Positions 8,986 through 34,220 of a stretch of DNA of 64,000 nt are shown here, piece after piece. The stretch is from Aureibaculum flavum. Its GTDB lineage: Bacteria > Bacteroidota > Bacteroidia > Flavobacteriales > Flavobacteriaceae. The stretch is taken from positions 1 through 64,000 of the forward strand of contig NZ_JAEHFJ010000011.1 of assembly GCF_016406085.1 (NCBI RefSeq). The letters run 5' to 3'. Under the pieces are notes generated by a model. That model saw only the letters and a program-made list of their open reading frames with translations, searched no databases and had not been told where the DNA came from. Both the position numbers and the translations under genes were made by a program. How positions within the stretch are numbered: position 1 is the stretch's first letter; each line of letters begins with the position of its first letter.

Positions 8986-9078
8986 ACTGTTAGTTTTGTT
9001 AATGATTAATTGATTATTAAGTTACAAAGATGAGTTATTATGCAATGTATTTTTAAACTGAATTTGGTTAATTTAATG

Positions 9079-9095
9079 CCCCAGTATATAGGGGG
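9079..9095 (-). promoter_or_regulatory. C4/G4 operator-like site A, upstream of the lipoprotein gene
   Basis: On the coding (minus) strand the site reads CCCCCTATATACTGGGG. It agrees at 14 of 17 positions with site B at 11525-11541 on the plus strand. The near edge is exactly 46 nt from CATCTTTG (complement of 9025-9032), a -7-like box. No good -33 TTG is present, which fits an activator-dependent promoter. Binding factor inferred, not shown. Confidence 0.6.
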
Positions 9096-9102
9096 TAGCA
9101 AT

Positions 9103-9133
9103 AAAAAATGCCCTCAAGAAATGGAGGGCATTT
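9103..9133 (-). terminator. Terminator of the protease/partner operon
   Basis: AAATGCCCTC (9106-9115) pairs with GAGGGCATTT (9124-9133). On the minus strand a run of six T follows the stem. It lies 20 nt beyond the stop codon of the gene at 9154-10221 and just upstream of site A. Confidence 0.85.
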
Positions 9134-9153
9134 AATAGGGTTAACTTTGAGAG

Positions 9154-10221
9154 TTAAATTTTTGCTGCAATGGACATTTCACACCCATAATTGTCAACAA
9201 AAAAGTCATCTAACTCATCTGCTTTTAAAGCTAAGTTTTTAATATTTTCTTTTATTTCATTTGCATGGTCAGAATAGATATCAGACAAATGCGTACGGTA
9301 AGATAAAAAGATGGTGTTGTTATAGATTCCTAAAGAATATGGAGACACCTTATCTTGTAATAGATAATCCATTACTTCTTGTAGGTTTTGTTTTGGTAAT
9401 TTATTTAATGGTGACGTGGCAAATAAGTAATTTCTATTGTATACAAAAATGCGTATTTGTGCACTTCCTTGATGGAATTCCCAAAAGTCTCTTCCTGCTC
9501 TTCCGAGTACGGGGTCCATACCTAATTCAACCAAAGTAGATTCAACAAAATTGGCAAAATGCGATTTTTCAAATTCTTCAAATAATGAAATGTCAATATC
9601 GCTGCCACAGTTAACGCAAAATTCACTCTCTTCAATTGTATAGCTATCACAAGAGTTACATTTTACATGATAAGCAATGTCAGGACTAATAAAATCTTTT
9701 ATCTCTTTAATTACGTCTAAATGTCTAATACCAAAACCAACATTATCAGCGTCTGTAAATTTAGAGGTAGTTACTCCCATTAAATTACCTGCTTCATTTA
9801 GCATTGGTCCACCGGAATTACCAGGGTTTACAGCAGCGTCAGTTTGAATAAAGTGTCTGTTGCCCATTGGTTGACTTACAGAAGATACGATACCTTCAGT
9901 TACCGTATAAGGCATACCAAAAGGGTATCCATTGATATATATCTTTTGAGTATTTGAAATTTCGATATCTTCATCTAAAGTAATACCAACCTCTTTGTTT
10001 TCGTAACCCTCTATATATAAGAATGCAAGATCTACATCGCGATTTACCATAACTACTTTGGCAACGTAGCGGTCTTTTTTATAATCTTCTACAGCAACTG
10101 ATTTATTGCCTTCTATTACATGGTAATTAGTTATTATATGATTGTTTCCTGAAATGGTAAATCCACTACCCGTACCAGAACCTGTGATGATTTTATATAT
10201 TGATTTTTCTATATTTTGCAT
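9154..10221 (-). CDS. Cytoplasmic trypsin-like serine protease with zinc ribbon
   Basis: 355 residues without signal peptide or membrane helix. An HtrA/trypsin-type catalytic domain spans 1-180, with the triad His34 (TNYHV), Asp64 (RDVDLAF) and Ser136 (NPGNSGGP). A zinc ribbon of four cysteines follows (C188xxC191, C202xxC205). The C-terminal domain (about 210-355) ends in a region (VYNRNYLFATSPLNKLPKQ, then LSYRTHLSD) resembling YbjN/type III chaperone-like folds. Unlike DegP there is no PDZ domain and no export signal, so the substrate should be intracellular. It is the second gene of an operon, 18 nt after the partner at 10240-11409. Substrate and trigger are unknown. Confidence 0.85.
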   Translation of the reverse strand: MQNIEKSIYKIITGSGTGSGFTISGNNHIITNYHVIEGNKSVAVEDYKKDRYVAKVVMVNRDVDLAFLYIEGYENKEVGITLDEDIEISNTQKIYINGYPFGMPYTVTEGIVSSVSQPMGNRHFIQTDAAVNPGNSGGPMLNEAGNLMGVTTSKFTDADNVGFGIRHLDVIKEIKDFISPDIAYHVKCNSCDSYTIEESEFCVNCGSDIDISLFEEFEKSHFANFVESTLVELGMDPVLGRAGRDFWEFHQGSAQIRIFVYNRNYLFATSPLNKLPKQNLQEVMDYLLQDKVSPYSLGIYNNTIFLSYRTHLSDIYSDHANEIKENIKNLALKADELDDFFVDNYGCEMSIAAKI

Positions 10222-10239
10222 AATTTCTATCTTTTTATA

Positions 10240-11409
10240 TTAACTGAATAATTTTGAAAAAAGTCCTTTTTTAGCTTTTTTTCTAACAGGTGTAGCTGTA
10301 CCGTTTAATAAGCCATTATAAGTGTCTAATAATTTTGGACTAGCGACATCAGGTTCTAAACCAGATACTTTTTCAAGAACATCATAAATTGCATTAAGCT
10401 GACCTTCTTCCAGATTATAACTGTAAACTAAATGTAAGAATGAGAATTGTAAATAATAACAGAGCGAAAAATGGTCATTGTCTTTAACATAGTTGGTAAC
10501 TATGCTTTCTCTGTTTTTCATATTATCTTGAACAATTTCAGTAGAACTACGATATCTTAAAGAAACTAAAGCATCTGCATTATAAACATTTTTCAAGATT
10601 TCTTCTTTGGTCATTGCACATAGTTTTTTCATAAAATTTGTGCCTTTATCAATTCTGAACTGGAAATCAATATCGCCATTTAACATGTTGTTTACATACT
10701 CTTGTAATTTTGTTCTTAACGTACCATGTACATAAGGCATGTTGGATAATTTTAGAATAGAAATTAAAATAATATCCCACTGAAAATTGTCCCATCTTTT
10801 TTCTTTAAAAAATGCACTGTAGTTTTTATAATCTTTTAAAATATCTTCTATTTGTTGCCATGCTTTTTCTAGATTTTCAGGGGTTAGAGGTGTTGTTTTT
10901 GAATCTTGATAGAAAGAAGCTTTGTACTTTTCAACAAACTCATCATCATAATCATCAGCATATACGCAAACATCACGCAATACATCATATACTTTAAAAG
11001 GTTGACACAAACTTAATGGCATTTCATAACCAAACCACAACGTATCATCTTTTAAATGAATTTGAGCCAAGGTAAGTGGGCTAAAATTAACTTCACCTAC
11101 TTTTCTTAATAGGGCTATTTTGTTAGTGCCTTCTGTAATTTTTAGAAAAGGAGCTTTTATTTTAAATATATTATCTGTTACTTCTAAATGTATTAACGCG
11201 GAACCTTGACCTCTTTCAATTGAAAAATCACCATTGGTGTCGACACCCTCTAATAAGGTGCTGTTCATATAATTTAGTGTATGGGTTAAAGATTCATTAT
11301 ATTTTTTTTCGTCAAAAGCATCTAAGGCTTTGTCCCAATAAGAAACATTGGTTTTAGGATCATTAGAGTCTTTTAAAGGACGTTTAAATTTAGGAAGTAC
11401 GTTATTCAT
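10240..11409 (-). CDS. Uncharacterised partner protein of the trypsin-like protease
   Basis: 389 residues, cytoplasmic, no family that I recognise. The N-terminal part (20-165) opens with a helix-rich stretch (YWDKALDAFDEKKYNESLTH) and then strands (ALIHLEVTDNIFKIKAPFLK, TLWFGYEMPLSLC) reminiscent of the YbjN-like C-terminal domain of its neighbour. This suggests the two proteins share a fold and may pair through it. The middle is helical, and the tail is basic and hydrophobic (KKAKKGLFSKLF). It is first in the operon with the protease, behind site B. Possible roles are adaptor, inhibitor or substrate-recognition subunit; none can be chosen from the sequence alone. Confidence 0.75.
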   Translation of the reverse strand: MNNVLPKFKRPLKDSNDPKTNVSYWDKALDAFDEKKYNESLTHTLNYMNSTLLEGVDTNGDFSIERGQGSALIHLEVTDNIFKIKAPFLKITEGTNKIALLRKVGEVNFSPLTLAQIHLKDDTLWFGYEMPLSLCQPFKVYDVLRDVCVYADDYDDEFVEKYKASFYQDSKTTPLTPENLEKAWQQIEDILKDYKNYSAFFKEKRWDNFQWDIILISILKLSNMPYVHGTLRTKLQEYVNNMLNGDIDFQFRIDKGTNFMKKLCAMTKEEILKNVYNADALVSLRYRSSTEIVQDNMKNRESIVTNYVKDNDHFSLCYYLQFSFLHLVYSYNLEEGQLNAIYDVLEKVSGLEPDVASPKLLDTYNGLLNGTATPVRKKAKKGLFSKLFS

Positions 11410-11524
11410 AATTTGATAGGTTATTTAAATGATTAAATTTTTAACGTGATGTTTAATGATTTATTTGATACAAAGATGAATAGTTTTTGAAAGTGTTTGA
11501 TAACCGAATTTAGTGAAAATGCCT

Positions 11525-11541
11525 CCCCCTGTAAATTGGGG
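11525..11541 (-). promoter_or_regulatory. C4/G4 operator-like site B, upstream of the protease operon
   Basis: On the plus strand the site reads CCCCCTGTAAATTGGGG, an imperfect inverted repeat. The near edge is exactly 46 nt from CATCTTTG (complement of 11471-11478), the same -7-like box at the same distance as for site A. The sequences around both -7-like boxes also share TCATCTTTGTA. Confidence 0.6.
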
Positions 11542-11550
11542 TACAAAGAA

Positions 11551-11590
11551 AAACCCATCTTTTTAATTTTTAAAAGATGGGTTTTTTGAA
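11551..11590 (-). terminator. Terminator of the M1 aminopeptidase gene
   Basis: AAACCCATCTTTT (11551-11563) pairs with AAAAGATGGGTTT (11572-11584). The hairpin lies downstream of the aminopeptidase stop codon on the minus strand, between it and site B. The T/A runs allow function in either direction. Confidence 0.75.
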
Positions 11591-11615
11591 AAGGTGTTTA
11601 GCTAAAGTTGTTGTA

Positions 11616-13442
11616 TTACAAACCGAAATTGTTATTGGTATCATCAATGTCTGCCATAAGGTGACTTGGGTCTATTTCTACTGATTTAACCGCTTTTTTT
11701 GCACTAAAAGAGTAGGTAGGGGCTGTCCAAGACCAACTACTTAAAGGGGTTGCTGTAGTCGGTTTTGAGCCTAACATCATTTTTAGCGGAATATAAAAAT
11801 TTTCATCAGTTCCATCAGTATAGGTCACTTTTAAATCTATAGGCATTGGCATTTTTCCAATACGTTTTAAAGTTATTTGATTCGTGTCAACGTTATCAAC
11901 AGCATAATCTATTGTTGCCGTTGTTTTGGTAAAATAGGTCAAATACCAGTCTAACTGTATACCAGATACTTTTTCAGCCGTACGCTTAATATCATTTGGC
12001 GTAGGGTGCTTAAATTTAAAGTCTTCAAAATATTTTTTTAAGGTTTTTTCAAGATTTTCTTTACCAATTATATAACCTAATTGTGCTAAAAACACGGCTC
12101 CTTTACTATAGGCAGAATTACTATATGAATAGTTAAAAGTATAATGATCAGCCAATGTAGTTAATGGTTCTTCTACACCAGATTTTGCTAATCTGATATA
12201 ACCTCTATAAGAACCCGCATTGGGATTTTCTTTATCTTGATTTAAAATTTCGTTCATGGCTTGGCTAGAAATATATGAAGTAAAACCCTCATCCATCCAT
12301 TCGTGCTTAGTTTCGTTGGTTGCCAATAAAAATTGAAACCATGTATGAGCAAATTCATGAGCTGTAACGCCAACTAATGATCCAAAATTACGGCCACCGG
12401 TTATTAGCGTACACATAGCATATTCCATTCCGCCATCACCACCTTGAATAACTGAATATTGTTTGTATGGATATTGTCCTATATGCGTGTTATAATAAGA
12501 TAATAATTCGGCAGTTTTCGGTTGTAATTTCTTCCAATTCTCAATAATTTCTTTATCATTTTTATAGAAAAAATGTAAGGTAACATCATTTTCACCTTTA
12601 ATTTTATCATGAATGTAATCAGGATCAGCAGCCCATGTGAAATCATGCACGTTTGGTGCTTTGAAATGCCAAGTTAATTTTTTTACTTTCTTTTTATGTT
12701 TCACTGGAGTGTCTGAATAACCATGACCAATTTCGTTAGGGTTTTGTAAGTACCCCGTTCCACCTATCGTATACTCTTTATCAATCGTAATTTTTACATC
12801 AAAATCGCCCCAAACACCATGAAATTCTCTGGCAATGTATTGATTTGTTTGCCATCCTTCGAAATCATATTCGGCTAATTTTGGATACCATTGTGTCATC
12901 GATAACGCTATACCTTCTTCGCTGTTTCTTCCAGAACGTCTAATTTGTAAAGGTACTTGACCTTTGAAGTTCATGTCTAAAACAGTTTTACCACCAGGCA
13001 TTATTGGTGTGTTTAATTTTACCTTTAAAAGAGTACCAATTACTTCGTATTTCACAGTAACTCCATCTTGCTGAAGTGAATTTATTTTTATATATCCAAT
13101 TTCATCTGGCTTTAATTTAGCAATTCTACTTTCGTAAATTGGAGCTTCCCTAGTACCAAGATTATTGACCATTCTTCGGTCAGGGTCTTTTATGTTTTGT
13201 AGCCTAATATCCATATCACTACCTGGTTGAAAAGCGTTAAATTGTAAATGATAAAAAACTTCACCGAGTGCATCAGGGGAGTTGTTCGTGTAAATTAATT
13301 TCTGCGTACCATCATATTGATAATTTTCTACATTCATATCAATACTCATAGTGTAATCAACATGTTGTTGCCAATACGAAGTGTTTTGTGCTGAAATAGA
13401 AAAGGTAATCAGTATCCCAATAAAAGATGTAATTTTTCTCAT
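11616..13442 (-). CDS. M1-family zinc metallopeptidase (aminopeptidase N-like), exported
   Basis: An exported peptidase of about 608 residues. A signal peptide (MRKITSFIGILITFSISAQ) is followed by the M1 N-domain, the exopeptidase motif GGMEYAM and the zinc site HEFAH, with the second glutamate in WMDEGF 18 residues later. All catalytic residues are present. The open frame extends nine codons further upstream (to 13469), but ATG 13442 begins a clean signal peptide, so I use it. The M1 family removes N-terminal amino acids, and here probably acts on peptides in the periplasm or outside. The subtilisin-like gene upstream on the same strand is separated by its own terminator. Confidence 0.93.
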   Translation of the reverse strand: MRKITSFIGILITFSISAQNTSYWQQHVDYTMSIDMNVENYQYDGTQKLIYTNNSPDALGEVFYHLQFNAFQPGSDMDIRLQNIKDPDRRMVNNLGTREAPIYESRIAKLKPDEIGYIKINSLQQDGVTVKYEVIGTLLKVKLNTPIMPGGKTVLDMNFKGQVPLQIRRSGRNSEEGIALSMTQWYPKLAEYDFEGWQTNQYIAREFHGVWGDFDVKITIDKEYTIGGTGYLQNPNEIGHGYSDTPVKHKKKVKKLTWHFKAPNVHDFTWAADPDYIHDKIKGENDVTLHFFYKNDKEIIENWKKLQPKTAELLSYYNTHIGQYPYKQYSVIQGGDGGMEYAMCTLITGGRNFGSLVGVTAHEFAHTWFQFLLATNETKHEWMDEGFTSYISSQAMNEILNQDKENPNAGSYRGYIRLAKSGVEEPLTTLADHYTFNYSYSNSAYSKGAVFLAQLGYIIGKENLEKTLKKYFEDFKFKHPTPNDIKRTAEKVSGIQLDWYLTYFTKTTATIDYAVDNVDTNQITLKRIGKMPMPIDLKVTYTDGTDENFYIPLKMMLGSKPTTATPLSSWSWTAPTYSFSAKKAVKSVEIDPSHLMADIDDTNNNFGL

Positions 13443-13492
13443 TTGTTTAAGTGGTTTTATAAAATGCAATATACTAAGATCAAGGGTGAAAC

Positions 13493-13540
13493 CAAAAAAA
13501 AAGAGAAATCAATAAATATTATTATTAATTTCTCTTTTTT
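13493..13540 (-). terminator. Terminator of the subtilisin-like protease gene
   Basis: AAAAAAGAGAAAT (13497-13509) pairs with ATTTCTCTTTTTT (13528-13540) around an A/T loop. It sits between the stop of the S8 peptidase at 13567 and the M1 gene start. Confidence 0.75.
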
Positions 13541-13566
13541 AGTAAGTAATTTTAAGTACTCTAAAA

Positions 13567-15258
13567 TTAATTAGACATATTTTCTGCCATTACAAGGGCA
13601 TTGTAAGCATTTAATATTTTACCAGAAACTGATAAGTCTTTAAATGGGACTCTGTTTGATTCAGTTCCAGGTTTTATAACGGGGTTGTTAAACTCTATAC
13701 CAGAATCCATTATAATTTTTTTAACTTGACTAGCTGTTAATTTTGGATAATATGATCTTACCAAGGCCGCAACACCTGCAACTTCTGGAGCAGCCATTGA
13801 AGTACCTTGTATTGATTCATATTCATCTTTAGGTACTGTAGAGTATATTTCTAAGCCTGGTGCAAATATGTCTACATTCTTTTTTCCGTAATTTGAAAAG
13901 GAAGCTGCAAGTTTATCATCATAATGTCTCGTCATAGCACCAACTGTAATTACATTATCTGCATATTCCACTAATTTATCTTTAGAATCATTAGGAAAAT
14001 TTTCAGCAACATCGATATCACTTCCATCATTACCTGCTGCATGTACTAATAATACATCTTTCTCTTCAGCATATTTTATAGCATCATATACCCACTTTGC
14101 ATTAGGTGAATAACTTTTACCAAAACTCATGTTTACTACTTTAGCTCCGTTATCAGCTGCATAACGTATGGCTAAAGCAACATCTTTATCATACTCATCA
14201 CCATCAGGAACGGCTCTAATTGACATGATCTTTACATTGTGTGCTACACCATTCATACCAACACCATTATTTCTTTCAGCTGCTACAATACCAGCAACAT
14301 GTGTTCCGTGCATTTCACCATCTTTAGACCCTATCGTATAAGCATTACCATACTTAGTATCTGTAATATCATAAGGATCATCTCCAGTTACACGACCATT
14401 AAATTCAAGGTTGTATTGAGAGTTTAATTGAGTGCTATAGTGGTCTACAATATTGTTTAATTGTTTTTCAGCACCTTCAACGGTATCTCCACTGCTTATA
14501 ATTCTCATAATAGTGAATTTACCTTGTTGTAGCATTTGATCATCAAGTTTTACTGAATTTATGTTATCTAAATTCATTTCTTTACCCACTAATAATTTAG
14601 AAAGTGTATCATTAGCTTTGACAATCAAATCTTTTACTGCCTTATATTGATTTACTTGAGCTTCTGCACTCTTATTTTTTTCATCTATAGTTTTCTTGAG
14701 TTTGGTAAATAATTCAAAATCTGCTTTATCTGACTCAGCAATTTCTTCAGCTGATTTTCCATCAAATTTTGGCATCCATTTTTTTACCATTCTAGTCATC
14801 TCTAGTTGTTCAGGAGCAGTTGAACCTTTTTCACCACCTAAGAAGTTCCAACCATGAATGTCATCAACATATCCATTGTTGTCATCATCTTTTCCATTAC
14901 CCGCTATTTCGTCTTCATTTACCCATGCAACATCATTTAAATCTTCATGCTCAATGTCAATACCAGAATCGATAATACCAACAATTACCGTTTTACCTTT
15001 TTTGTTTTTTACAAAATCATAGGCTTTATCTATACTCATTCCGGGAATAGAATCCTTAAAAATGTCCATATGTGGCCATCCTTGTATTTCAGCCTCGGTC
15101 ATTTCGGCAGTTTTAGGAACTATGCTATCCGTAGTTACCTTAATTATAGTTTCTGTTACTGAATTAGAAGTTGTGCTAGTCGTTGTTTTTGTTGTACCAC
15201 AACTTGTAATTAGCATTGCAGCAATTGCTACAAAAGAAAATGGTTTTAAAATTCTCAT
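13567..15258 (-). CDS. Subtilisin-family (S8) peptidase lipoprotein
   Basis: 563 residues with lipoprotein signal MRILKPFSFVAIAAMLITSC (Cys at 20), so it is probably membrane-anchored and facing outside the cytoplasm. The catalytic Asp is in GIIDSGIDIEHEDL (near 98), His in HGTHVAGI (near 318), oxyanion Asn in HAAGNDG and Ser in GTSMAAPE (near 483). Asp and His are about 220 residues apart instead of the usual 40 or so. The insertion (about 140-300) is rich in charged residues and helices, and may be a specificity or pro-like element folded into the domain. It is the second gene after the MBL hydrolase, with only 10 nt between, and so probably co-transcribed. Confidence 0.93.
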   Translation of the reverse strand: MRILKPFSFVAIAAMLITSCGTTKTTTSTTSNSVTETIIKVTTDSIVPKTAEMTEAEIQGWPHMDIFKDSIPGMSIDKAYDFVKNKKGKTVIVGIIDSGIDIEHEDLNDVAWVNEDEIAGNGKDDDNNGYVDDIHGWNFLGGEKGSTAPEQLEMTRMVKKWMPKFDGKSAEEIAESDKADFELFTKLKKTIDEKNKSAEAQVNQYKAVKDLIVKANDTLSKLLVGKEMNLDNINSVKLDDQMLQQGKFTIMRIISSGDTVEGAEKQLNNIVDHYSTQLNSQYNLEFNGRVTGDDPYDITDTKYGNAYTIGSKDGEMHGTHVAGIVAAERNNGVGMNGVAHNVKIMSIRAVPDGDEYDKDVALAIRYAADNGAKVVNMSFGKSYSPNAKWVYDAIKYAEEKDVLLVHAAGNDGSDIDVAENFPNDSKDKLVEYADNVITVGAMTRHYDDKLAASFSNYGKKNVDIFAPGLEIYSTVPKDEYESIQGTSMAAPEVAGVAALVRSYYPKLTASQVKKIIMDSGIEFNNPVIKPGTESNRVPFKDLSVSGKILNAYNALVMAENMSN

Positions 15259-15268
15259 GTTTATTAAA

Positions 15269-16129
15269 TTAATTAAAAATATCGTTAAAAGTAAAAGTTT
15301 GATCTAATCGTACACCTTTTTCTGTATGTTTTACGGTACAGATTTCATTATGTGCATCATGCTCCAAAAACAGCATATATTTATTATCAGCCGCACTATT
15401 CAAAAAGGCTTGTTTTTCGTCTAAAGTTAATAGGGGTCTAGTGTCATAACCCATAACGTAAGGTAAAGGTATATGCCCTACAGTAGGAAGCAAATCTGCC
15501 ATAAAAACTAAAGTCTGTCCCTTGTATTTAATATGAGGAATCATTTGTTTATCAGTATGTCCATCAACAAATAGTATGTCAAAATCTAATTCAGAATTTT
15601 CACGAAAATTTGAATTAGGCATTTTAATAAATTCTAATTGACCACTTTCTTTTATAGGATTTATGTTTTCTTTAAAAAAAGAAGCTTTTTCTCTTGCGTT
15701 AGGTTCAGTGGCCCATTTCCAATGGTCTTCATTGCTCCAGAATTTTGCATTTTTAAAGGCAGGCTCGTAACCCGTTTTATCTTTATTAAATTGGATGCTT
15801 CCACCACAATGGTCAAAATGTAAATGGGTCAAAAAAACGTCAGTTATGTCATCTCTATGAAAGCCATATTTTGCTAACGAAGATTCAAGTGTGGCATCTC
15901 CATATAAGTCATAATAGCTAAAAAATTTATCAGACTGTTTATTTCCTAAACCGGTGTCAATCAATGTTAATCTTTCTCCATCTTCAATTAACATACTTCG
16001 CATACCCATATCAATAAGGTTCTTAGCGTCAGCAGGATTTGTTTTTTGCCATAACGTTTTTGGTACAACGCCAAACATGGCTCCGCCGTCTAGCTTAAAA
16101 TTTCCGGTCTCAATTGGGTAGATTCTCAT
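15269..16129 (-). CDS. Metallo-beta-lactamase-fold hydrolase
   Basis: 286 residues, no signal peptide. The zinc-binding motif HxHxDH is seen as THLHFDHCGG, followed by further metal ligands in VDGHTDKQ, FMADLLPTVGH and LEHDAH. The overall layout matches the AHL-lactonase/PqsE-like branch of the family (quorum-quenching-type or general lactone/ester hydrolases), but the substrate cannot be read from sequence. It precedes the subtilisin-like gene by 10 nt on the same strand, so the two are likely one operon. Between it and tRNA-Cys upstream lies the 88-bp repeat array. Confidence 0.88.
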   Translation of the reverse strand: MRIYPIETGNFKLDGGAMFGVVPKTLWQKTNPADAKNLIDMGMRSMLIEDGERLTLIDTGLGNKQSDKFFSYYDLYGDATLESSLAKYGFHRDDITDVFLTHLHFDHCGGSIQFNKDKTGYEPAFKNAKFWSNEDHWKWATEPNAREKASFFKENINPIKESGQLEFIKMPNSNFRENSELDFDILFVDGHTDKQMIPHIKYKGQTLVFMADLLPTVGHIPLPYVMGYDTRPLLTLDEKQAFLNSAADNKYMLFLEHDAHNEICTVKHTEKGVRLDQTFTFNDIFN

Positions 16130-16268
16130 TTTTATTGATAAAAGACTACAAATGTCTTAAAAATAAGTCAGATAAATGTTAAATAAATGAGAAAAAAGAG
16201 GTTGAATTGTAGGTGTATTAATTAGCACTTACAGCTACTATTTTTAATCGTTAGAATAATGATTTTTC

Positions 16269-16709
16269 ATGAAATCAAAAAGAGGCGTCGAGCGTCCCGA
16301 AGTGTCGGGAGAACCGCTGTATGAATATTGATTAAAAAATAAATATATTGTTTAGGATGAAATCAAAAAGAGGCGTCGAGCGTCCCGAAGTATCGGGAGA
16401 ACCGCTGTATGAATATTGATTATAAAATAAATAGATTGTTTAAGATGAAATCAAAAAGAGGCGTCGAGCGTCCCGAAATGTCGGGAGAACCGCTGTGTGA
16501 ATATTGATTATAAAATAAATAGAATGTTTAGGACGAAATCAAAAAGAGGCGTCGAGCGTCCCGAAGTATCGGGAGAACCGCTGTATGAATATTGATTATA
16601 AAATAAATAGATTGTTTAAGATGAAATCAAAAAGAGGCGTCGAGCGTCCCGAAATGTCGGGAGAACCGCTGTATGAATATTGATTATAAAATAAATAGAA
16701 TATTTTGGG
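16269..16709 (-). repeat. Five tandem 88-bp repeats derived from the tRNA-Cys 3' end
   Basis: Units start at 16269, 16357, 16445, 16533 and 16621 (88, 88, 88, 88, 89 bp). Each starts, on the plus strand, with the 26-bp stretch that includes and follows the tRNA-Cys 3' end (acceptor strand and half of the T-stem). It then has a perfect hairpin, TCCCGA-tetraloop-TCGGGA, in place of the T-loop, then AACCGCTGTA (the other T-stem strand), then about 37 bp of A/T-rich spacer. The intact tRNA follows in phase at 16710. The rest of 16130-16268, up to the MBL gene, holds nothing I recognise. Confidence 0.9.
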
Positions 16710-16723
16710 ATGAAATCAAAAAG

Positions 16724-16794
16724 AGGCGTCGAGCGGATTCGAACCGCTGTACAAGCTTTTGCAGAGCTCTGCCTAGCCACTCGGCCACAACGCC
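16724..16794 (-). tRNA. tRNA-Cys (anticodon GCA)
   Basis: Read on the minus strand, the acceptor GGCGTTG pairs with CGACGCC. The D-arm, the anticodon stem GAGCT/AGCTT with loop CTGCAAA (anticodon GCA) and the T-arm AGCGG-TTCGAAT-CCGCT are all intact. The discriminator is T, as expected for Cys. CCA is not encoded (CTT follows). The 3' flank TCTTTTTGATTTC is copied in every unit of the neighbouring repeat array. Confidence 0.95.
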
Positions 16795-16849
16795 TTTTAA
16801 TTAAGGCTACAAATCTAAACAAATAAATAGTGATTTCACAAAATAATAA

Positions 16850-20015: not shown

Positions 20016-20033
20016 TGCAAACATTATTATAAT

Positions 20034-26775: not shown

Positions 26776-26797
26776 GCTAAGTTGGGCATTTCTTATA

Positions 26798-27631
26798 TTA
26801 GAGCTTTTCAGAGTGTTTTGGGCTTATTTTTATAAAGATCAATATAAGTCCAACAATAATAAAAGGAATACTTAAAATTTGTCCCATATTGATGGTCATG
26901 GTATCTTCAAACCCCACTTGGTTTTCTTTAAAAAATTCAATCAAAAATCTAGCAGAAAACACTAAGACTAAAAGTAGTCCAAAAATTTGTCCGTTCGATA
27001 ATTTGTTGGCCATTTTCTTATAGGTAAATAGTAAGATTCCAAATATTAAAAGGTATGAAAATGCCTCATAAAGTTGAGTTGGGTGTCGTGGTATTAAATC
27101 ATCTCTTTGAAAAATAACACCCCAATTTCCATTTGTTGGTTTTCCATAAATTTCAGAGTTCATAAAATTCCCTAATCGAATGAAGACGGCGACTATTGGT
27201 GTGGCAATTGCGATCCTGTCTAAGACCCATAAAAAGTTGGTTTTATATTTTTTACAGTAAATTCCAATTGCAATTAATGCTCCAATAGCTCCTCCATGAC
27301 TTGCTAATCCTTGAAAGCCTGTAAATTGATAGGAACCTCCTATTTTTTGAATTGGCAATAAAATTTCGATAGGGTTTTGAAAGTAATAGGAAGGCTCATA
27401 AAAGAAACAATGTCCGAGTCTTGCTCCTAAGACGATACCAATAATAATGTAAAAAAATAACTTCTCTAAATTTTTAATGGGGACATTTTCTTTAATGTAA
27501 ATACGTTTGGCTACATAATTAGCTAAAAGAAGACCTGTTATAAAAAATAAACCATAATATTTTAATGGAAAAGAATCAGTTATCCAATAAATAACTGGAT
27601 CAAGATTCCATGTTACAATTCTGTCATTCAT
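26798..27631 (-). CDS. lgt: Prolipoprotein diacylglyceryl transferase
   Basis: 277 residues with seven predicted membrane helices. Lgt transfers diacylglycerol from phosphatidylglycerol to the lipobox cysteine of prolipoproteins in the inner membrane. Signature stretches are YYGLFFITGLL, ASHGGAIGALIAIG (essential His), RLGNFMNSEIYG (the Lgt signature) and RHPTQLYEA. Many predicted lipoproteins in this window depend on it. It follows two tiny membrane-protein genes on the same strand, 52 nt from the nearer one. Confidence 0.96.
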   Translation of the reverse strand: MNDRIVTWNLDPVIYWITDSFPLKYYGLFFITGLLLANYVAKRIYIKENVPIKNLEKLFFYIIIGIVLGARLGHCFFYEPSYYFQNPIEILLPIQKIGGSYQFTGFQGLASHGGAIGALIAIGIYCKKYKTNFLWVLDRIAIATPIVAVFIRLGNFMNSEIYGKPTNGNWGVIFQRDDLIPRHPTQLYEAFSYLLIFGILLFTYKKMANKLSNGQIFGLLLVLVFSARFLIEFFKENQVGFEDTMTINMGQILSIPFIIVGLILIFIKISPKHSEKL

Positions 27632-27683
27632 ATTTTAAATACAGTAATTATGATTTAACTGCAAAATGTTTAATACTTTAAAT

Positions 27684-27845
27684 TTATTTCTTTTTAGCTC
27701 TATGATACATGATATAGGCAATGACAACGAGTACAGCAAATGGTAAATAAGTACCAATTAAAATACCTATTTCATAGCCGTCGTCAGGAGCGTCTTTGAT
27801 TTTTTGTTCAATATTAGCTTGTTGTACTATGGATAAAAAAGACAT
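27684..27845 (-). CDS. Small single-pass membrane protein
   Basis: 53 residues from ATG 27845 (MSFLSIVQQANIEQKI...). The frame is open 10 codons further upstream, but that part overlaps the preceding small gene. A polar N-terminal half is followed by one strong membrane helix (IGTYLPFAVLVVIAYIMYH) and a basic tail RAKKK. Its ATG lies one base after the stop of the small gene at 27847-27990, so translation is probably coupled. Function unknown. It could be a small accessory subunit or an envelope stress peptide. Confidence 0.65.
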   Translation of the reverse strand: MSFLSIVQQANIEQKIKDAPDDGYEIGILIGTYLPFAVLVVIAYIMYHRAKKK

Positions 27846-27846
27846 A

Positions 27847-27990
27847 TTATTTTTTCTTTCTAATTCTTCGGACAATAAAATAAATTGCCACTACTAAAAT
27901 TACATACCAAAGATATTGGCCAACATTTTCACCAGCAGCTTCTGCTTGACTGATAAATGCCATTTTCGAAATTAAGGTAGTTAAGGTCAT
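27847..27990 (-). CDS. Small single-pass membrane protein
   Basis: 47 residues: MTLTTLISKMAFISQAEAAG, then one membrane helix (QYLWYVILVVAIYFIVRRI) and a basic end RKKK. It has the same layout as the next small gene (polar N-terminus, single helix, Arg/Lys tail). The stop codon is separated by one base from the next ATG. It lies 22 nt after the enoyl-CoA hydratase-like gene, so probably fabD, hydratase, the two small genes and lgt are one transcript. I do not recognise the family. Confidence 0.6.
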   Translation of the reverse strand: MTLTTLISKMAFISQAEAAGENVGQYLWYVILVVAIYFIVRRIRKKK

Positions 27991-28012
27991 ACTTTTAATT
28001 ATTTATTAGTAG

Positions 28013-28765
28013 TTATTTTTTAAATTTTTGAAGAGCTTTTTTAGTAAAATCTGACAATACCAATTGTCCACTAATTTCTGCTCTTTCTATTAATAAGGTG
28101 TTCCAATTTTCTGTACCTTCCCAAATTACTTTTTTCATTGCTTTTAAAGCATCTGGGTTATAGCTCGCTAATTTTTTAGAAAGACTTTCTACATATTCAT
28201 CCATATCTCTAGTGTTTTCAAAAACTCTAGCATATAAATTATTCTCTTTTGCCCAATAGGCAGAATGCCATTCGGTAGCATCTAAAGAAAGTTTACTAAA
28301 CGCTGCAATTCCGGTTTTACGGGTTACGGCAGGTTCAATAACAAAAGGACCAATACCAATGGTAAGTTCAGATAATTTAATATCAGCTTTTTCTGTAGCA
28401 AAACAATAGTCAGTTGCTGCAATAATGCCAACGCCACCACCCACTGCTTTTCCTTGAACTCTACCAATAATTGGTTTAGAGCAAGTCCGCATGGCATTTA
28501 TTAAGTTGGCAAATCCAGAAAAGAACTTTTTGCCTTCTTCCAAATTATTAATGGCAATTAATTCGTCAAAAGAAGCACCGGCACAAAAGGTTTTATCACC
28601 CTCGCTCTGTAAAATAATGACTTGAATAGAGGAGTCTCCACTTAATCGATTAATATTTTCTATCAGTCTATCTAAAAGTTCAGCAGGAAAAGAATTACTT
28701 GCTGGATGTCCAAAAGTAAGTGTTGCTATATTTTCTCTAATACTTGTAAGTACAGTACCTTCCAT
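28013..28765 (-). CDS. Enoyl-CoA hydratase/isomerase family protein
   Basis: 250 residues of the crotonase fold: ATLTFGHPASNSFP near the start, the CoA-binding loop CAGASFDEL and the oxyanion stretch GRVQGKAVGGGVGIIAATDY. The first catalytic glutamate of true hydratases is not obvious, because the ELTIGIGP region has E only in the SELTIG position, so isomerase or another crotonase reaction is equally possible. Its start codon overlaps the fabD stop (TAATG), showing translational coupling with fatty-acid synthesis. Confidence 0.88.
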   Translation of the reverse strand: MEGTVLTSIRENIATLTFGHPASNSFPAELLDRLIENINRLSGDSSIQVIILQSEGDKTFCAGASFDELIAINNLEEGKKFFSGFANLINAMRTCSKPIIGRVQGKAVGGGVGIIAATDYCFATEKADIKLSELTIGIGPFVIEPAVTRKTGIAAFSKLSLDATEWHSAYWAKENNLYARVFENTRDMDEYVESLSKKLASYNPDALKAMKKVIWEGTENWNTLLIERAEISGQLVLSDFTKKALQKFKK

Positions 28766-29658
28766 TAGTTGTTTTCTTCAAATATTGCTCCATTAGCGGT
28801 AACAGATCTGTCAATTTTTCGCATTAAACCTTGTAAAACTTTACCAGGTCCAACTTCGGTAAATTCAGTAGCACCATCTTTAATCATTTGCTGAATAGAT
28901 TGTGTCCAACGTACAGGAGCTGTTAATTGAGCTACCAAGTTCTTTTTAATATCAGTGGCATTACTTACTGCGTTAGCCGCTACATTTTGATATATAGGGC
29001 AATTAGGTTCGCTAAACAATGTGTTTTCGATTGCAGCGGCTAATTCTTCACGAGCAGGTTCCATTAATGGAGAGTGAAAAGCACCACCAACAGGCAATAC
29101 TAAAGCTCTTCTAGCTCCTGCAGCTGTTAAGGCTTCGCAGGCTAGGTTTATAGCAGAAACTTCACCTGAAATTACCAATTGGCCAGGGCAGTTATAGTTT
29201 GCGGCAACCACAATTCCAGGTGTTTTAGCACAAATATTTTCTACAATATCATCTTCTAAGCCTAAAACTGCAGCCATTGTAGAAGGTTGTATTTCACATG
29301 CTTTTTGCATGGCTAACGCACGTTGCGATACTAATTTTAATCCGTCTTCAAATGATAAGGTGCCGTTGGCCACTAAGGCAGAAAACTCTCCTAAAGAATG
29401 GCCAGCAACCATCTCTGGTTTAAAACGATCACCTAAAGTTTTTGCTAAGGCTACAGAATGTAAAAATATTGCAGGTTGCGTAACTTTGGTTTCTTTCAGT
29501 TGTTCAGGTGTGCCTTCGAACATAATATCGGTTATTGAAAACCCTAATATTGAATTGGCTTTTTCAAAATATTCTTGAGCAATGTTAGATTTTTCATAGA
29601 TGTCTAAACCCATTCCTGAAAATTGAGCTCCTTGACCAGGGAAAATATATGCGTGCAT
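28765..29658 (-). CDS. fabD: Malonyl-CoA:acyl carrier protein transacylase
   Basis: 297 residues. FabD loads malonate from malonyl-CoA onto ACP to start fatty-acid elongation in the cytoplasm. The N-terminal GQGAQFSGMG, the nucleophile motif GHSLGE, catalytic His in PVGGAFHSPLM and C-terminal EVGPGKVLQGLMRKI are all present. First gene of a probable operon with the crotonase-like gene, two small membrane genes and lgt. Confidence 0.97.
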   Translation of the reverse strand: MHAYIFPGQGAQFSGMGLDIYEKSNIAQEYFEKANSILGFSITDIMFEGTPEQLKETKVTQPAIFLHSVALAKTLGDRFKPEMVAGHSLGEFSALVANGTLSFEDGLKLVSQRALAMQKACEIQPSTMAAVLGLEDDIVENICAKTPGIVVAANYNCPGQLVISGEVSAINLACEALTAAGARRALVLPVGGAFHSPLMEPAREELAAAIENTLFSEPNCPIYQNVAANAVSNATDIKKNLVAQLTAPVRWTQSIQQMIKDGATEFTEVGPGKVLQGLMRKIDRSVTANGAIFEENN

Positions 29659-29775
29659 AAGTTGGTTTTAAAGTTGTTTTACAAAAATAGAAAATTTGAG
29701 CCTAACAAGTGTTGTGATTGCTAAGTTAGTTTTCTTACTACTTTCACAAATATTTTATACTTTCGTAATTGTACT

Positions 29776-30468
29776 ATGGATCACGAAAAAAAATTACTGG
29801 GCTACAAGATTTACTTAATTTTAGCAGCACTTTTTATTACCTCATTGGTAGTGTCTAATTTAATTTTTCTTAAATTTTTTCAATGGAGTCCCTTCGGACT
29901 ATTTAATTTTGAAATATCTGTAGGGATTTTGCCTTATCCACTAACATTTTTAATAACAGATTTAATTTCAGAAATTTATGGAAGGAAAAAGGCTAATCAG
30001 GTTGTTACTGTAGGTGTGTTTGCAGCTTTTTTTTCGATGTTAATTGTGTTAATAGCCAATTACGTTCCGGCCATTGAAACTTCACCAGTAAATGACAGAA
30101 CTTTTACAAGTGTTTTTGGGTTGTCACCTGTTGGAGTCTTAGCTTCTATGCTTGCTTATTTATTAGCTCAGTTTATTGATATCAGAATTTTTCATTTTTG
30201 GAAAGCATTAACTAATGGGAAACATTTATGGTTGCGAAATAATTTTTCTACATTTGCTTCGCAATTCATTGATACATTAACAGTTGTAACATTAATTTGT
30301 GCTTTTGGGGCAATGCCATGGGGAAAATTTAATATATTATTGTTAAGTGGTTTTTTATTTAAAATTGTGGTTGCATTATTTGACACTCCATTTCTCTATT
30401 TCTTTGTTTGGATTTTTAGAAAAAAATTTAAATTGAAAGAAGGAGAAGAGATTGATTTAGATACTTAA
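29776..30468 (+). CDS. Queuosine precursor transporter-like protein (YhhQ/VUT family)
   Basis: 230 residues with about six membrane helices. Typical of the family are the N-terminal LFITSLVVSNLIFLKFF, the segment LPYPLTFLITDLISEIYGRK and the later LRNNFSTFASQFIDTLTV. Members import queuosine precursors (preQ0/preQ1) in E. coli and other bacteria; the exact ligand here is inferred. The stop codon overlaps that of the convergent response-regulator gene by four bases, leaving no room for a terminator between them. Confidence 0.92.
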   Translation: MDHEKKLLGYKIYLILAALFITSLVVSNLIFLKFFQWSPFGLFNFEISVGILPYPLTFLITDLISEIYGRKKANQVVTVGVFAAFFSMLIVLIANYVPAIETSPVNDRTFTSVFGLSPVGVLASMLAYLLAQFIDIRIFHFWKALTNGKHLWLRNNFSTFASQFIDTLTVVTLICAFGAMPWGKFNILLLSGFLFKIVVALFDTPFLYFFVWIFRKKFKLKEGEEIDLDT

Positions 30469-31100
30469 ACCAATTCGTTTTTTAAAGCATAAACAACCAT
30501 ACCAATTCTGTTTTTTACTTGTAATTTTTTAAAAAGTTGCTCTCGGTAACCATCAATTGTTTTTGGACTTAAATGCATCACATCTGCAATCTCTTTATAC
30601 GTCATTTCTGTACTCGCCAATTTTAAAAATTCCAATTCTCTATCTAAAAGCTTTATTTTAGGTTCTTCAGTAGGATGTAGTGAATGTACTAAGGTATCTG
30701 AAACTCTTTTTGAATGGTAATAACCTTCATTAATTAAGGCTAACAATGCTTCTTTTAAAATGTCAGGATGGATGTCTTTGAGTAAATACCCTTTCGCCCC
30801 ATTCTTAATCATTTTTAAAATAGAACTTTCATTGTCGTCCATAGATAAAGCTAACACTTTTATACTTGGGTAATTTTCATTTAAAAACTTAGTCGTTTCT
30901 AAGCCGTCCATAATGGGCATATTTAAATCCATTAAAGCTATTTCGGGGAGGTTAGATTCGTTTTTTAGGTTGTCAATAAAAATCTTTCCATTTAAAGCAT
31001 GCTGTGTCACTTCAAATTCACTAAAAGTATTGATTAATCCTTTTAAAGATTTAGCGAAAAGAAGGTGGTCATCTATTATAGCAATGGTATGTTTAGACAT
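30465..31100 (-). CDS. NarL/FixJ-type response regulator
   Basis: 211 residues. The receiver domain (1-120) has the acidic pair DD10-11, phospho-acceptor Asp58 (MDLNMPIMDG) and Lys in GYLLKD. A LuxR-type HTH fills 145-205 (LLDRELEFLKLASTEMTYKE, then HLSPKTIDGYREQLFKKL). It overlaps the histidine-kinase gene by 8 bases and is the last gene of the lipoprotein-7TM-kinase operon. Site C, upstream of that operon, resembles sites A and B far away in the window. I infer that this protein binds them. NarL-family regulators bind inverted repeats as dimers, which fits the motif. Confidence 0.93.
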   Translation of the reverse strand: MSKHTIAIIDDHLLFAKSLKGLINTFSEFEVTQHALNGKIFIDNLKNESNLPEIALMDLNMPIMDGLETTKFLNENYPSIKVLALSMDDNESSILKMIKNGAKGYLLKDIHPDILKEALLALINEGYYHSKRVSDTLVHSLHPTEEPKIKLLDRELEFLKLASTEMTYKEIADVMHLSPKTIDGYREQLFKKLQVKNRIGMVVYALKNELV

Positions 31101-31878
31101 CTTTTTTTTGTTTTGGATATGTTAATGTTAGTGAAACTCCTTTGTCTTTTTCAGATTGTAAATCAAACTCGGTGTTAATCAATTTTGCACGGCTCTTCAT
31201 GTTGAGTAATCCAGAGCCTTTTTTTACTATATTTTCGTCAAAACCTATCCCGTAATCTTGAATTTTAATTTTTAAAAATTCATTAGTACAGTTAGCCGTT
31301 ATTTCAATTTTTTTTGATTTAGAATGCTTAATGGAATTGGAAAGAAATTCTTGAACAATTCTAAATAAAATAATTTCATCTTTTTGATTAATAGGTGTAA
31401 TACTACCTTTAACATCAAAGGTAGCGTTTATATAGTTTAGTCGGTTAAATCGGTCAATTTCAAGTTGAATGGCCTCATGTAAGCCAATATTTTTTACAAC
31501 TTCGGGATTTAACAATTTTGACAGTGATCTTATTTCTTGTAAACTTTTTGAAATAATATCGCCGGTGTCTTGTACTAGCGTTTTTTGCTCTTCAGTTAAA
31601 CTAGGTTGTACCATATTTAGCTGCATTCTTGCGACCGAAAGTAATTGCCCTACATTATCATGCAACTCCCAGCTTATATTTTGCAAGGTTTGTTCTTGCG
31701 TTTCTAATTTTGATTTAATAATTTCTTCATCAAAACGCTGCTTTGCTACTTCTTGGTCAAATAAAAATTTGACCTTTCTATTTTGAAAAATGCTAAAAAT
31801 TATTATGATAATAACAATTAATAAAACAATGGTAAGTGTTGTAATTAAAATAATGATAGTTATGTCTCCTTGCTCCAT
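31093..31878 (-). CDS. Membrane-anchored histidine kinase (HisKA_3 type)
   Basis: 261 residues. One N-terminal membrane helix (8-32) is followed by a short coiled-coil linker. The HisKA_3 dimerisation/phospho-acceptor domain has His73 in SWELHDNVGQLLSVAR, and an HATPase_c domain has GSGLLNMKSRAKLI. There is no extracytoplasmic sensor domain of its own. The neighbouring 7TM protein probably supplies the sensing, as is usual for such short kinases. It overlaps its response-regulator gene. Its first 40 residues are closely related to the 58-residue remnant at 32593-32769. Confidence 0.92.
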   Translation of the reverse strand: MEQGDITIIILITTLTIVLLIVIIIIIFSIFQNRKVKFLFDQEVAKQRFDEEIIKSKLETQEQTLQNISWELHDNVGQLLSVARMQLNMVQPSLTEEQKTLVQDTGDIISKSLQEIRSLSKLLNPEVVKNIGLHEAIQLEIDRFNRLNYINATFDVKGSITPINQKDEIILFRIVQEFLSNSIKHSKSKKIEITANCTNEFLKIKIQDYGIGFDENIVKKGSGLLNMKSRAKLINTEFDLQSEKDKGVSLTLTYPKQKKDV

Positions 31879-31893
31879 AATAGTATGACTAAT

Positions 31894-32574
31894 TTAATCA
31901 ATCTTTTCCACTCTTTTACTCCATATAAAACCAAATGTAAAGATTAGGTACATTGTTATAGCCAATATATAAATAATTAAATATAATTTGTGTATACCTG
32001 GAAAAACGGTGTAATCGTTGTACTTTAATGAAAACGGTATTGTGCCAGTATGAAATATTAGGAGTCCTACACTTATCCAGAATAATAATGTTTTATGAAA
32101 AATTATTATTCTGTCGGACTTTAGTAATTGTATAAAATAAAATATGATGGTAATAATAAGAAAAATTGAACCCGAAACATAGGGCAATTCAGACATTTCA
32201 AAAACAAAATTCTGTATAAAAGTCCAGTTTATTATAGAAATAATTACATAAGAGAATATAAATATTTTAATGTATTTTTTTTGTTTAGAATTATAAATTG
32301 ATTTTAAATAGATCATTAAAATTACAACAAATAGTACAAAATATAATAAGTTGAATAACCAGAGGTTGTAGTCGACACCATCTTTATCAAAAAAAACCAA
32401 AACACTGTTATTTCTTGCGTACCATCCAATACATTCGGTTACAGTAATGTACCAAAGTAAAAATAGAAAATACTTCAGGTGGGTGTGTTTATATTTATAA
32501 AAAAATAGTGTACCCATAATTGCTGACAATAATTCTGAATATATTATAAAATCCCTGAAAGAATCTATTGACAT
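31894..32574 (-). CDS. Multipass (about 7TM) membrane protein, putative sensor, copy 2
   Basis: 226 residues with about seven membrane helices and a short cytoplasmic end (IWSKRVEKID). It is similar along its whole length to the protein at 32751-33428 (shared YSELLSAI, FYKYKHT, LKYFL, LLWYIT, GTIPF, YILAITMYL and FTFGFIWSK), so the two are duplicates. It lies 15 nt before the full-length kinase gene and is presumably its partner. The ligand is unknown. No enzymatic motif is visible. Confidence 0.82.
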   Translation of the reverse strand: MSIDSFRDFIIYSELLSAIMGTLFFYKYKHTHLKYFLFLLWYITVTECIGWYARNNSVLVFFDKDGVDYNLWLFNLLYFVLFVVILMIYLKSIYNSKQKKYIKIFIFSYVIISIINWTFIQNFVFEMSELPYVSGSIFLIITIIFYFIQLLKSDRIIIFHKTLLFWISVGLLIFHTGTIPFSLKYNDYTVFPGIHKLYLIIYILAITMYLIFTFGFIWSKRVEKID

Positions 32575-32592
32575 TTTAAATTATTTTTGGAG

Positions 32593-32769
32593 TTAAATAT
32601 CAAAAGAAGATAGATTATCTTTAATTATATCATTTAAGGTTTTATTATCAATCAATAACTTGTTTTTTCTGTTTTGAAAAACCAGAAATAATGCTATCAT
32701 AGCAATGGAAAAAATCAAGACTATAATAGTTGTTATTAAAATGACTAATGTTACTCCTTCTTGCTCCAT
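32593..32769 (-). CDS. Truncated histidine-kinase N-terminus (duplication remnant)
   Basis: 58 residues from ATG 32769 (MEQEGVTLVILITTIIV...). The sequence follows the N-terminus of the intact kinase at 31093 (MEQGDITIIILITTLTIV..., FQNRK in both), covers the membrane helix and stops just after it, before the phospho-acceptor domain. So it is either a remnant of a duplicated kinase or a small membrane modulator of it. The start codon lies inside the end of the upstream 7TM gene (overlap 19 nt), whereas the intact copy has a 15-nt gap. A longer reading frame to 32868 is only a frame overlapping the 7TM gene. Confidence 0.65.
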   Translation of the reverse strand: MEQEGVTLVILITTIIVLIFSIAMIALFLVFQNRKNKLLIDNKTLNDIIKDNLSSFDI

Positions 32770-33428
32770 ATAAAACCAAATGTAAATGTTAAATACATAG
32801 TTATTGCTAATATGTAAAGGATTAAAAACAGTTCGTGAGTTCCACGAATTAGCATATATCCATTCCATTTTAAAGTAAAGGGAATTGTTCCTGTAAAAAA
32901 CAAAAGCAATCCTACACTAATCCAAAACAATAAAAGTTTGTGAAATACTACTATTTTTTCAGACCGAAGTAATTCAACGAAATAGAATATAATAGAAATA
33001 ATTAAGAAAATTGAACCGAGAATTCTCGGTAGTACAACACCTTCTTTAATGAAATTTTGAATAAAAAACCAGTTAAAGAAATTGACAATTAAAAATATAA
33101 TTAAAAATACTTTTATCCATTTCTTAAATAGTTGCGTTTTAAGATATTTATAATATATAATATAAACGGTGCTAAATAAAACAATGTACATTGTATTGTA
33201 AAGCCATTTATTATAAACTAATCCATTTTCGTCGATATAGGCCAAGTTTCCGGTAATTCTTATATACCAACCCAAAAATTCAGTTATTGTTATGTACCAC
33301 AGTAAGTAAAGAAAATACTTTAAGCAGGTGTGCTTATATTTATAAAAATATACTGTACCTACAATAGCTGAAAGTAACTCGGAATATCTTACTGAGCTTT
33401 TAATTAATGATATTGCGGTTTCAGACAT
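32751..33428 (-). CDS. Multipass (about 7TM) membrane protein, putative sensor, copy 1
   Basis: 225 residues with about seven membrane helices, paralogous to the gene at 31894-32574. It ends with FIWSKKE, where the last codons overlap the start of the kinase remnant. It follows the lipoprotein gene (33462-34100) by 33 nt and belongs to the same operon. It may sense a membrane or lipid signal or associate with the lipoprotein; nothing in the sequence specifies this. Confidence 0.82.
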   Translation of the reverse strand: MSETAISLIKSSVRYSELLSAIVGTVYFYKYKHTCLKYFLYLLWYITITEFLGWYIRITGNLAYIDENGLVYNKWLYNTMYIVLFSTVYIIYYKYLKTQLFKKWIKVFLIIFLIVNFFNWFFIQNFIKEGVVLPRILGSIFLIISIIFYFVELLRSEKIVVFHKLLLFWISVGLLLFFTGTIPFTLKWNGYMLIRGTHELFLILYILAITMYLTFTFGFIWSKKE

Positions 33429-33461
33429 AAATGCTTCTTAATATATATACTTTTTGTTGAT

Positions 33462-34100
33462 TTAGTTATTATCCATTGGGGGTGAATTGTCTCCATCATT
33501 AAATAATAAACCATGTTCATCACCATCTTGAGCCAATGAAAAGAAACTCGCTTTATCTACTTTTTGAGTTTGATTAGGAGTATAGTTTTTATTACTTAAA
33601 ATTGATTTTAAGTATAGTGGTTGTGTTTTGCCATCAATTAGTTCTAACGTATAACCAGATTGCACACCTTCATTTTTTGTAGTAGGTGCAATAAAAAAGG
33701 TTTGTTGGTTTTTTTGCTTACCTTCTTTATCGCTATAAACACTAAAGTAAAATTGAAGGCCCTCTGGAGAAATTTTATTTTCGGCAGATTTTTTTTCTAC
33801 GTAAGCAATGTAATTTTTCAATGTTTCTAGGTCAAACCAAACACGACGGGTGTCTTTAAAGTCATTACCATACAAAGTGTTTAGCGTGTCCTTTAAAATA
33901 TCAATTCGTTCCTTTTCATAATTTTGATACATGTTAACGGCCTTTTCAGGTTTTATAATATGGGCTAACATATCTTTACTGGCACCCTCATCCACTTTAT
34001 GTGGTTTTTTTTCATCGCATGAGATTAACAACATGCATGCGGCAAAAAAAAGAGTAATTGTTGCCTTTAACTTCTGCTTCAATAATTTAAAATACTTCAT
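33462..34100 (-). CDS. Lipoprotein opening the 7TM/two-component operon
   Basis: 212 residues. A lipoprotein signal (basic start MKYFKLLKQKLK, hydrophobic core, lipobox MLLISC, Cys at 28) is followed by an unfamiliar domain with a conserved-looking stretch RRVWFDLETLKNYIAYVEKK. The tail is acidic and ends in DNSPPMDNN. No catalytic motif is recognised. As first gene before two membrane proteins, a kinase and a regulator, it may be the envelope part of the sensing complex. Regulatory site C lies 104-120 bp upstream of its ATG. Confidence 0.8.
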   Translation of the reverse strand: MKYFKLLKQKLKATITLFFAACMLLISCDEKKPHKVDEGASKDMLAHIIKPEKAVNMYQNYEKERIDILKDTLNTLYGNDFKDTRRVWFDLETLKNYIAYVEKKSAENKISPEGLQFYFSVYSDKEGKQKNQQTFFIAPTTKNEGVQSGYTLELIDGKTQPLYLKSILSNKNYTPNQTQKVDKASFFSLAQDGDEHGLLFNDGDNSPPMDNN

Positions 34101-34145
34101 AGTTAGTGTTTTAAGTTTAATTCAGTTTTATGTAACGGCAAATTA

Positions 34146-34220
34146 CAAATAAATATGTTTGGATTAAAAGGGGGTTTTCCCCCTTTTTTGTTTAGGGGAA
34201 AAACCCCTGTAATTTTAGGG
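34146..34220 (-). promoter_or_regulatory. Regulatory region with C4/G4 operator-like site C
   Basis: Site C (34204-34220) reads CCCCTGTAATTTTAGGG on the plus strand, close to site B. Two further inverted repeats adjoin it: GGGG-N5-CCCC at 34195-34207, sharing its CCCC, and GGGGG-TTTT-CCCCC at 34170-34183 within a 9-bp A/T-extended stem. A -7-like TTTATTTG (complement of 34146-34153) lies 50 nt from site C. The region 34221-34540 otherwise shows only A/T-rich sequence, with one near-palindrome ATTACA-N6-TGTAAT at 34512-34529. Confidence 0.55.

Follow-up and report, generated by a model that had tools for sequence, protein, structure and literature searches.

The 64-kb window analysed here (the whole stretch of DNA, with a G+C content of 32%) from an Aureibaculum sp. 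genome carries two short dyads, sites A and B, which are best read as operators of a two-component regulon of the Flavobacteriaceae; the most likely regulator, RR2, is a NarL/LuxR-type response regulator whose gene lies outside the window and follows that of a histidine kinase with TPR repeats. The probability of this reading is put at roughly 0.8. It is carried by the computed motif, which is conserved, keeps a fixed spacing to the promoter box, co-occurs with the RR2 gene and tends to lie close to it. A preliminary description of this DNA had proposed a C4/G4 motif common to three operons, at sites A, B and C, and had assigned it to a NarL-type response regulator that is encoded in the window and linked to genes for seven-transmembrane (7TM) proteins. 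All three sequences are present where they had been placed, and genome comparison indicates that A and B are real members of a conserved regulon. The score of site C stays at background level, and its core changes between species. The idea of one regulator for both the A and the B targets is probably correct, given their common dyad at a fixed distance from the -7 box. The host genome (G000) comprises 4.75 Mb in 40 contigs, and the comparison covered 17 genomes of the genus and, family-wide, 299 Flavobacteriaceae genomes.

Conservation of sites A and B

Site A (9079..9095, CCCCCTATATACTGGGG on the minus strand) is the operator dyad of the promoter of a lipoprotein-like gene (8335..8985, minus strand), whose product of 216 amino acids (aa) was called a lipoprotein by eye from its N-terminus and has no match in Pfam or NCBIfam. 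Site B (11525..11541, CCCCAATTTACAGGGGG on the minus strand) is the operator dyad before a pair of genes, both on the minus strand, encoding a 389-aa TY-Chap1-domain protein (10240..11409; Pfam PF22551, 31.0 bits against a cut-off of 27) and a 355-aa trypsin-like (S1C/HtrA-like) protease (9154..10221; Pfam Trypsin_2, 95.4 bits). The two dyads score 46.4 and 41.7 bits, respectively, in the later promoter model R3 and, with A taken on the minus and B on the plus strand, agree at 14 of 17 positions, as had been described. Both promoters have the -7-like box CATCTTTG, at 9025..9032 and 11471..11478 (minus strand). The spacing of exactly 46 nucleotides (nt) claimed for both holds for A, and for B when its fifth G is counted; from the C4-N8-G4 core of B the distance is 47 nt.

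All 17 positions of site B are identical in four species (G000, G007, G009 and G011), with flanks, including terminator and spacer, that diverge. The TY-Chap1 protein is 97% identical in Aureibaculum luteum and 90% in A. marinum. Where protein identity has fallen to 60% (G001), ACCCTGTTTTCAGGGA occupies the site B position before the TY-Chap1/S1C pair. The dyad of site A is kept in other forms before the lipoprotein orthologs of seven genomes, at protein identities down to 52-53%, and each of these seven promoters has a [CT]AnnTTTG box 45 or 46 nt past the dyad. An eighth lipoprotein match (G012, 33-36% identity) has no dyad at this position, and the TY-Chap1 genes of G003, G010, G012, G017 and G027 have none within 330 bases before their starts; in G003, the model scan puts one dyad farther upstream (contig C174, locus L210). 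A TY-Chap1 homolog also lies behind a site in a genome of another genus (G253). The site A region gave no match in a phage collection. It is conservation and context, and not the literal pattern, that make sites A and B significant. With up to three mismatches, the literal motif occurs three times in the window against a shuffle mean of 1.2, a count reached in 13 of 100 shuffles and hence within chance; genome-wide, it has 43 forward and 30 reverse matches, no clear excess over the 30 and 31 of the reversed control. The genome scan that had been suggested as a test of promoter enrichment therefore fails for the literal pattern, whereas the corrected promoter model is enriched in promoters.

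Promoter architecture

The promoters of the regulon consist of an operator palindrome near CCCTGWWWWCAGGG, a weaker box 24 nt downstream, and a TAnnTTTG-type -7 box 46 nt past the palindrome. In the genus profile of 69 promoters, this reads (A)CCCC-TRTTTT-CA-GGG(G/A), then four unconstrained bases, ATTTT, a single base, AC-N8-GT, some 24 bases and finally (C/T)AnnTTTGTA; in other genera the dyad is closer to the palindrome CCCTGWWWWCAGGG. The second box, a putative contact of the AC-N8-GT type recognised from an alignment of 60 promoters together with the profile, lies at 9057..9068 in promoter A and at 11503..11514 in promoter B (minus strand). The initial promoter model, R1, was a sequence model from 14 promoters; a further 64 genus entries were picked among the matches listed, 60 of which were retrieved (two of G011, one of G012 and one of G014 being left out), and R3 was trained on 60 sequences, namely the 57 of the 69 promoters that survived a redundancy filter plus the re-added L104, L105 and L109 promoters of the own genome. 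A NAnnTTT(G/A) box lies 45-47 nt past the dyad in all 69 genus promoters profiled, at exactly 46 nt in 59 of them. Outside the genus, where the anatomy rests on 45 site placements in retrieved stretches that include the weaker family-scan matches only in part, the spacing was 46 nt in 37, 47 nt in three and 45 nt in one, with no box in range in four; none of these placements was used in training.

The housekeeping sigma-A consensus of Flavobacterium psychrophilum is TAnnTTTG at -12 to -5 (PMC9723704), and with the present box at these positions the centre of the dyad would fall at -66.5 and that of the second box at -42.5 from a predicted transcription start, 24 nt apart. Such a layout is activator-like and suggests activation over repression. 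Two single dyads, L385 (G215) and L355 (G202), are flanked by site matches in both orientations and may serve divergent genes.

Regulon members in the own genome

At E<=1e-3, R3 finds eight matches in the own genome, with 34.7-54.2 bits, which correspond to eight promoters at several unlinked places. An exact C4-N8-G4 search had added two promoters with 46-nt spacing: L067, before a 140-aa membrane protein and a SIMPL protein, and L069, before a second SIMPL protein. R1 found three that were outside its training set, each exactly 46 nt from its box: L104 (TANGO2 gene and lipoprotein; E 1.3e-8), L105 (two small lipoproteins; E 2.5e-4) and L109 (an L,D-transpeptidase with YkuD and Scaffold domains; rank 10, E 0.07, behind matches in open frames). 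The promoter L218, before an 848-aa gene judged lipoprotein-like by eye, came from models later than R1.

The membrane protein behind L067 (L067:1015-1437, about 140 aa), termed here the MIxGI protein, has homologs in other genera and no match in Pfam or NCBIfam; judged by eye, its gene comes first after 19 of the 45 sites outside the genus, spread over 19 genomes, and it often follows RR2. Candidate envelope targets comprise the L,D-transpeptidase (YkuD), SIMPL proteins, the S1C protease and proteins with signals recognised by eye, and several other targets are without family. Together, SIMPL at several promoters, the L,D-transpeptidase, the lipoproteins and the S1C protease with TY-Chap1 suggest a role in the cell envelope.

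Several candidates were rejected. Exact C4-N8-G4 occurrences at L064, L065, L068 and L070, a near-match at L072, and the R1 matches L106, L107 and L108 lie inside open frames, the occurrence at L071 is terminator-like, and that at L066, before an alanine dehydrogenase gene, has no box at the proper distance. Several repeated CCCCTCTTGAGAGGGG-type occurrences, as well as the C4-N8-G4 places at C1:557930, C12:244566, C14:1423, C27:441712 and C35:216222, were excluded by eye.

Co-occurrence of the motif with RR2

RR2 came to light beside the motif in the genus search made with the 7TM-linked regulator. It is a protein of 217 aa encoded on the minus strand at L249:2842-3495 (G000:C27:365341-365994), with Response_reg (72.5 bits) and GerE (62.9 bits) domains, both over their cut-offs. 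Directly before it lies a gene for a 634-aa kinase with HisKA_3, HATPase_c and TPR matches and a signal-like N-terminus. Strong sites occur in 11 of the 17 genus genomes, and in the other six (G002, G004, G005, G006, G008 and G013) the best match is only background (E 0.02-0.30). A direct search detected RR2, with scores of at least 287 bits, in 10 of the 11 motif-positive genomes and in none of the six motif-negative ones. The order RR2, site, MIxGI, with the kinase gene before RR2 wherever the contig extends, recurs in G007, G009, G010, G011, G012, G014, G015 and G016 (with one additional open frame in G016), and in G003 the contig stops after RR2. The recognition helices of RR2 are nearly invariant and distinct from those of the 7TM-linked regulator. 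Second RR2-like regulators, with 47-51% identity, lie beside RR2 in G015 (C25:3755-4384), G181 and G017.

The association extends to the family, although the stricter filters of the 299-genome scan made missed sites likelier. R3 places the motif in 26 genomes at E<=5e-5 and in 35 at E<=1e-3. RR2 scores are two-peaked: 28 genomes reach at least 220 bits and, among the matches listed, no other exceeds 223 and none follows below 220 until 193. RR2 is present in 25 of the 26 motif genomes at E<=5e-5 against 3 of the 273 others (Fisher p 4.7e-32, at a cut-off picked after data inspection and overstated, since relatives do not count as independent). In several genera, two genomes differ in motif and RR2 alike, as in g4, where G276 has both and G019 neither, and also in g11 (G026, G280), g41 (G060, G288) and g111 (G332, G130). 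In 22 of 26 non-genus RR2 genomes, a site of at least 21 bits lies in the roughly 10 kb around RR2, the others being G027, G176, G181 and G329, and in 14 of the non-genus RR2 genomes a site lies no more than 450 nt after RR2. A site stands before the kinase and RR2 genes in at least seven genomes (G017, G274, G210, G190, G035, G286 and G123), which suggests self-control.

Several observations weigh against this assignment. At the looser E<=1e-3, RR2 is found in only 25 of 35 motif genomes against 3 of 264 others (p 3.0e-25, overstated for the same reason of relatedness). G001 has many sites and G265 a single strong one, which precedes MIxGI and SIMPL, and RR2 was found in neither genome; the G001 assembly is 85% complete, whereas G265 is a complete genome. 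Conversely, G027, G176 and G329 have RR2 and no site at E<=1e-3 genome-wide in the stricter-filter scan, nor any near RR2, and g104 does not fit, with motif and RR2 in G123 and RR2 alone in G329. In the own genome RR2 does not share a contig with sites A and B, and between RR2 and the site nearest to it there are two genes. The promoter model itself favours a 46-nt spacing, so that the spacing among its matches is not independent evidence. Finally, the comparison of co-occurrence covered two NarL-type regulators only, a point that counts for another regulator as the factor.

Alternative explanations

According to the initial proposal, the 7TM-linked NarL-type regulator of the window (30465..31100, minus strand; Pfam Response_reg and GerE) controls A, B and, through site C, its own operon. 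This regulator is of the NarL type, lies in the same window and has a site-like sequence before its operon. The proposed family is probably right and the gene very probably wrong, because its distribution does not follow the motif. Apparent orthologs (at least 57% identity) occur in 14 of the 17 genus genomes, including all six that lack the motif, and it was not found in motif-positive G003, G014 and G015, all incomplete assemblies. RR2 follows the motif far better and site C fails as an operator, which together leave the 7TM-linked regulator very improbable as the factor. The genome comparison instead favours RR2, most likely a different gene of the same family as the one first suspected.

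A more serious competitor, still unlikely, is that the regulon is real and RR2 is one of its targets or neighbours, the dyad being bound by another regulator of the same distribution. RR2 often lies within the regulon, in at least seven genomes, which would alone be enough to explain its closeness to the sites, and G001 and G265 have sites without it. The joint presence and absence of RR2 and motif in the genus and in g4, g11, g41 and g111 argues for RR2 itself, as does a difference, noticed post hoc, in the recognition helix: the histidine kept in 34 of 36 compared sequences is changed in both RR2 copies of the motif-less G176. That the C4/G4 dyads represent RNA hairpins, terminators or GC-rich patches arising by chance in AT-rich DNA has hardly any credibility left for A and B. 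Terminator-like repeats such as CCCCTCTTGAGAGGGG account for many C4-N-G4 pairs of the own genome, the literal pattern shows no enrichment over controls, and this explanation may hold for site C. It is contradicted for A and B by the spacing and the co-occurrence: each is preceded by a terminator-like hairpin separate from it and followed by a promoter box, the distance from dyad to box is constant in non-homologous promoters and in other genera, and the dyad is absent from six genus genomes.

Proposed mechanism and relation to known systems

If RR2 is the regulator, the TPR/HisKA_3/HATPase_c kinase would sense a signal, probably derived from the envelope, and would phosphorylate RR2. An RR2 dimer is predicted to bind the palindrome near CCCTGWWWWCAGGG, centred at about -66.5, with a second, weaker contact at AC-N8-GT, centred at about -42.5, and both contacts could jointly recruit the housekeeping RNA polymerase to the TAnnTTTG-type box. 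More tentatively, and with somewhat less than even odds, RR2 and the TPR kinase may form a lineage-specific envelope stress response of the Flavobacteriaceae, in which MIxGI would be the dedicated output or a partner in feedback, and in which SIMPL, TY-Chap1/S1C and the L,D-transpeptidase would act as one envelope-repair module.

To our knowledge, operators have been assigned to few Flavobacteriaceae regulators, and a search of the open-access literature found no description of this regulon. For a regulon that has eight promoters in the own genome and was found in 26 of 299 family genomes at E<=5e-5, the analysis supplies an operator with its promoter geometry and names a candidate regulator, and it groups SIMPL/DUF541, TY-Chap1, the MIxGI membrane protein and the lipoprotein of the window as likely partners whose roles become testable. 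The closest described system found is FimS/FimR of Porphyromonas gingivalis, likewise a two-component system of the Bacteroidota with TPR repeats in the sensor region of the kinase and a gene-activating response regulator (PMC5706477); FimSR governs fimbriae genes, whereas no fimbrial genes were noted among the present targets. The kinase before RR2 reaches 51.9 bits with NCBIfam FimS, below the cut-off of 600. LiaSR and VraSR, of the Gram-positive envelope stress response, combine a HisKA_3 kinase with a NarL-type regulator and envelope-type targets. The present system resembles them in both kinase and regulator type, and the catalytic half of its kinase matches LiaS with 93.7 bits, but the LiaS cut-off of 450 is not reached and no LiaF-like gene was noted. 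The enterobacterial Cpx response, which has protease and L,D-transpeptidase targets, is similar in this gene content only, its regulator being of the OmpR and not the NarL type. Among the sigma-factor motifs SM1-SM6 mapped in F. psychrophilum, the sigma-A consensus fits the -7 box of these promoters, and the upstream C/G dyad is not described in the available part of that study (PMC9723704).

Site C and the noncoding stretch upstream of the 7TM operon

Site C (34204..34220, unstranded) is no operator of this regulon and lies upstream of the 7TM operon in a conserved noncoding stretch that is rich in hairpins. R1 ranks it 15th of 45 in the own genome, with a background score of 12.9 bits (E 0.55), and its counterpart in G009 is likewise background (13.9 bits, E 0.28), in contrast to the 34.7-54.2 bits of the eight regulon members in R3. 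Its core TTACAG reads TTATAG in G007 and is absent from G011. The surrounding stretch of about 340 nt (34160-34500) is nearly unchanged across three Aureibaculum species, and a counterpart in G011, with 75% identity over 254 nt and also upstream of the 7TM operon, has C/G runs that form hairpin arms with different spacing and without the TTACAG core. A long stem is possible on either strand of 34160-34500 (z -3.5 and -3.7), which also contains chained C/G runs, and an Rfam search of the stretch gave no family at gathering and 20 sub-threshold matches at E<=5. Three direct repeats resembling TTGCTATGAAA lie at 34318-34385 and also occur in G011; a 24-base piece of this repeat region recurs unchanged within a tandem repeat of 453 bases that lies close to one end of contig C4 in the own genome. 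Two similar 7TM-like genes stand in tandem (31894-33428), and the short open frame that comes after the first of them (32593-32868) resembles the beginning, in truncated form, of the kinase that follows the second.

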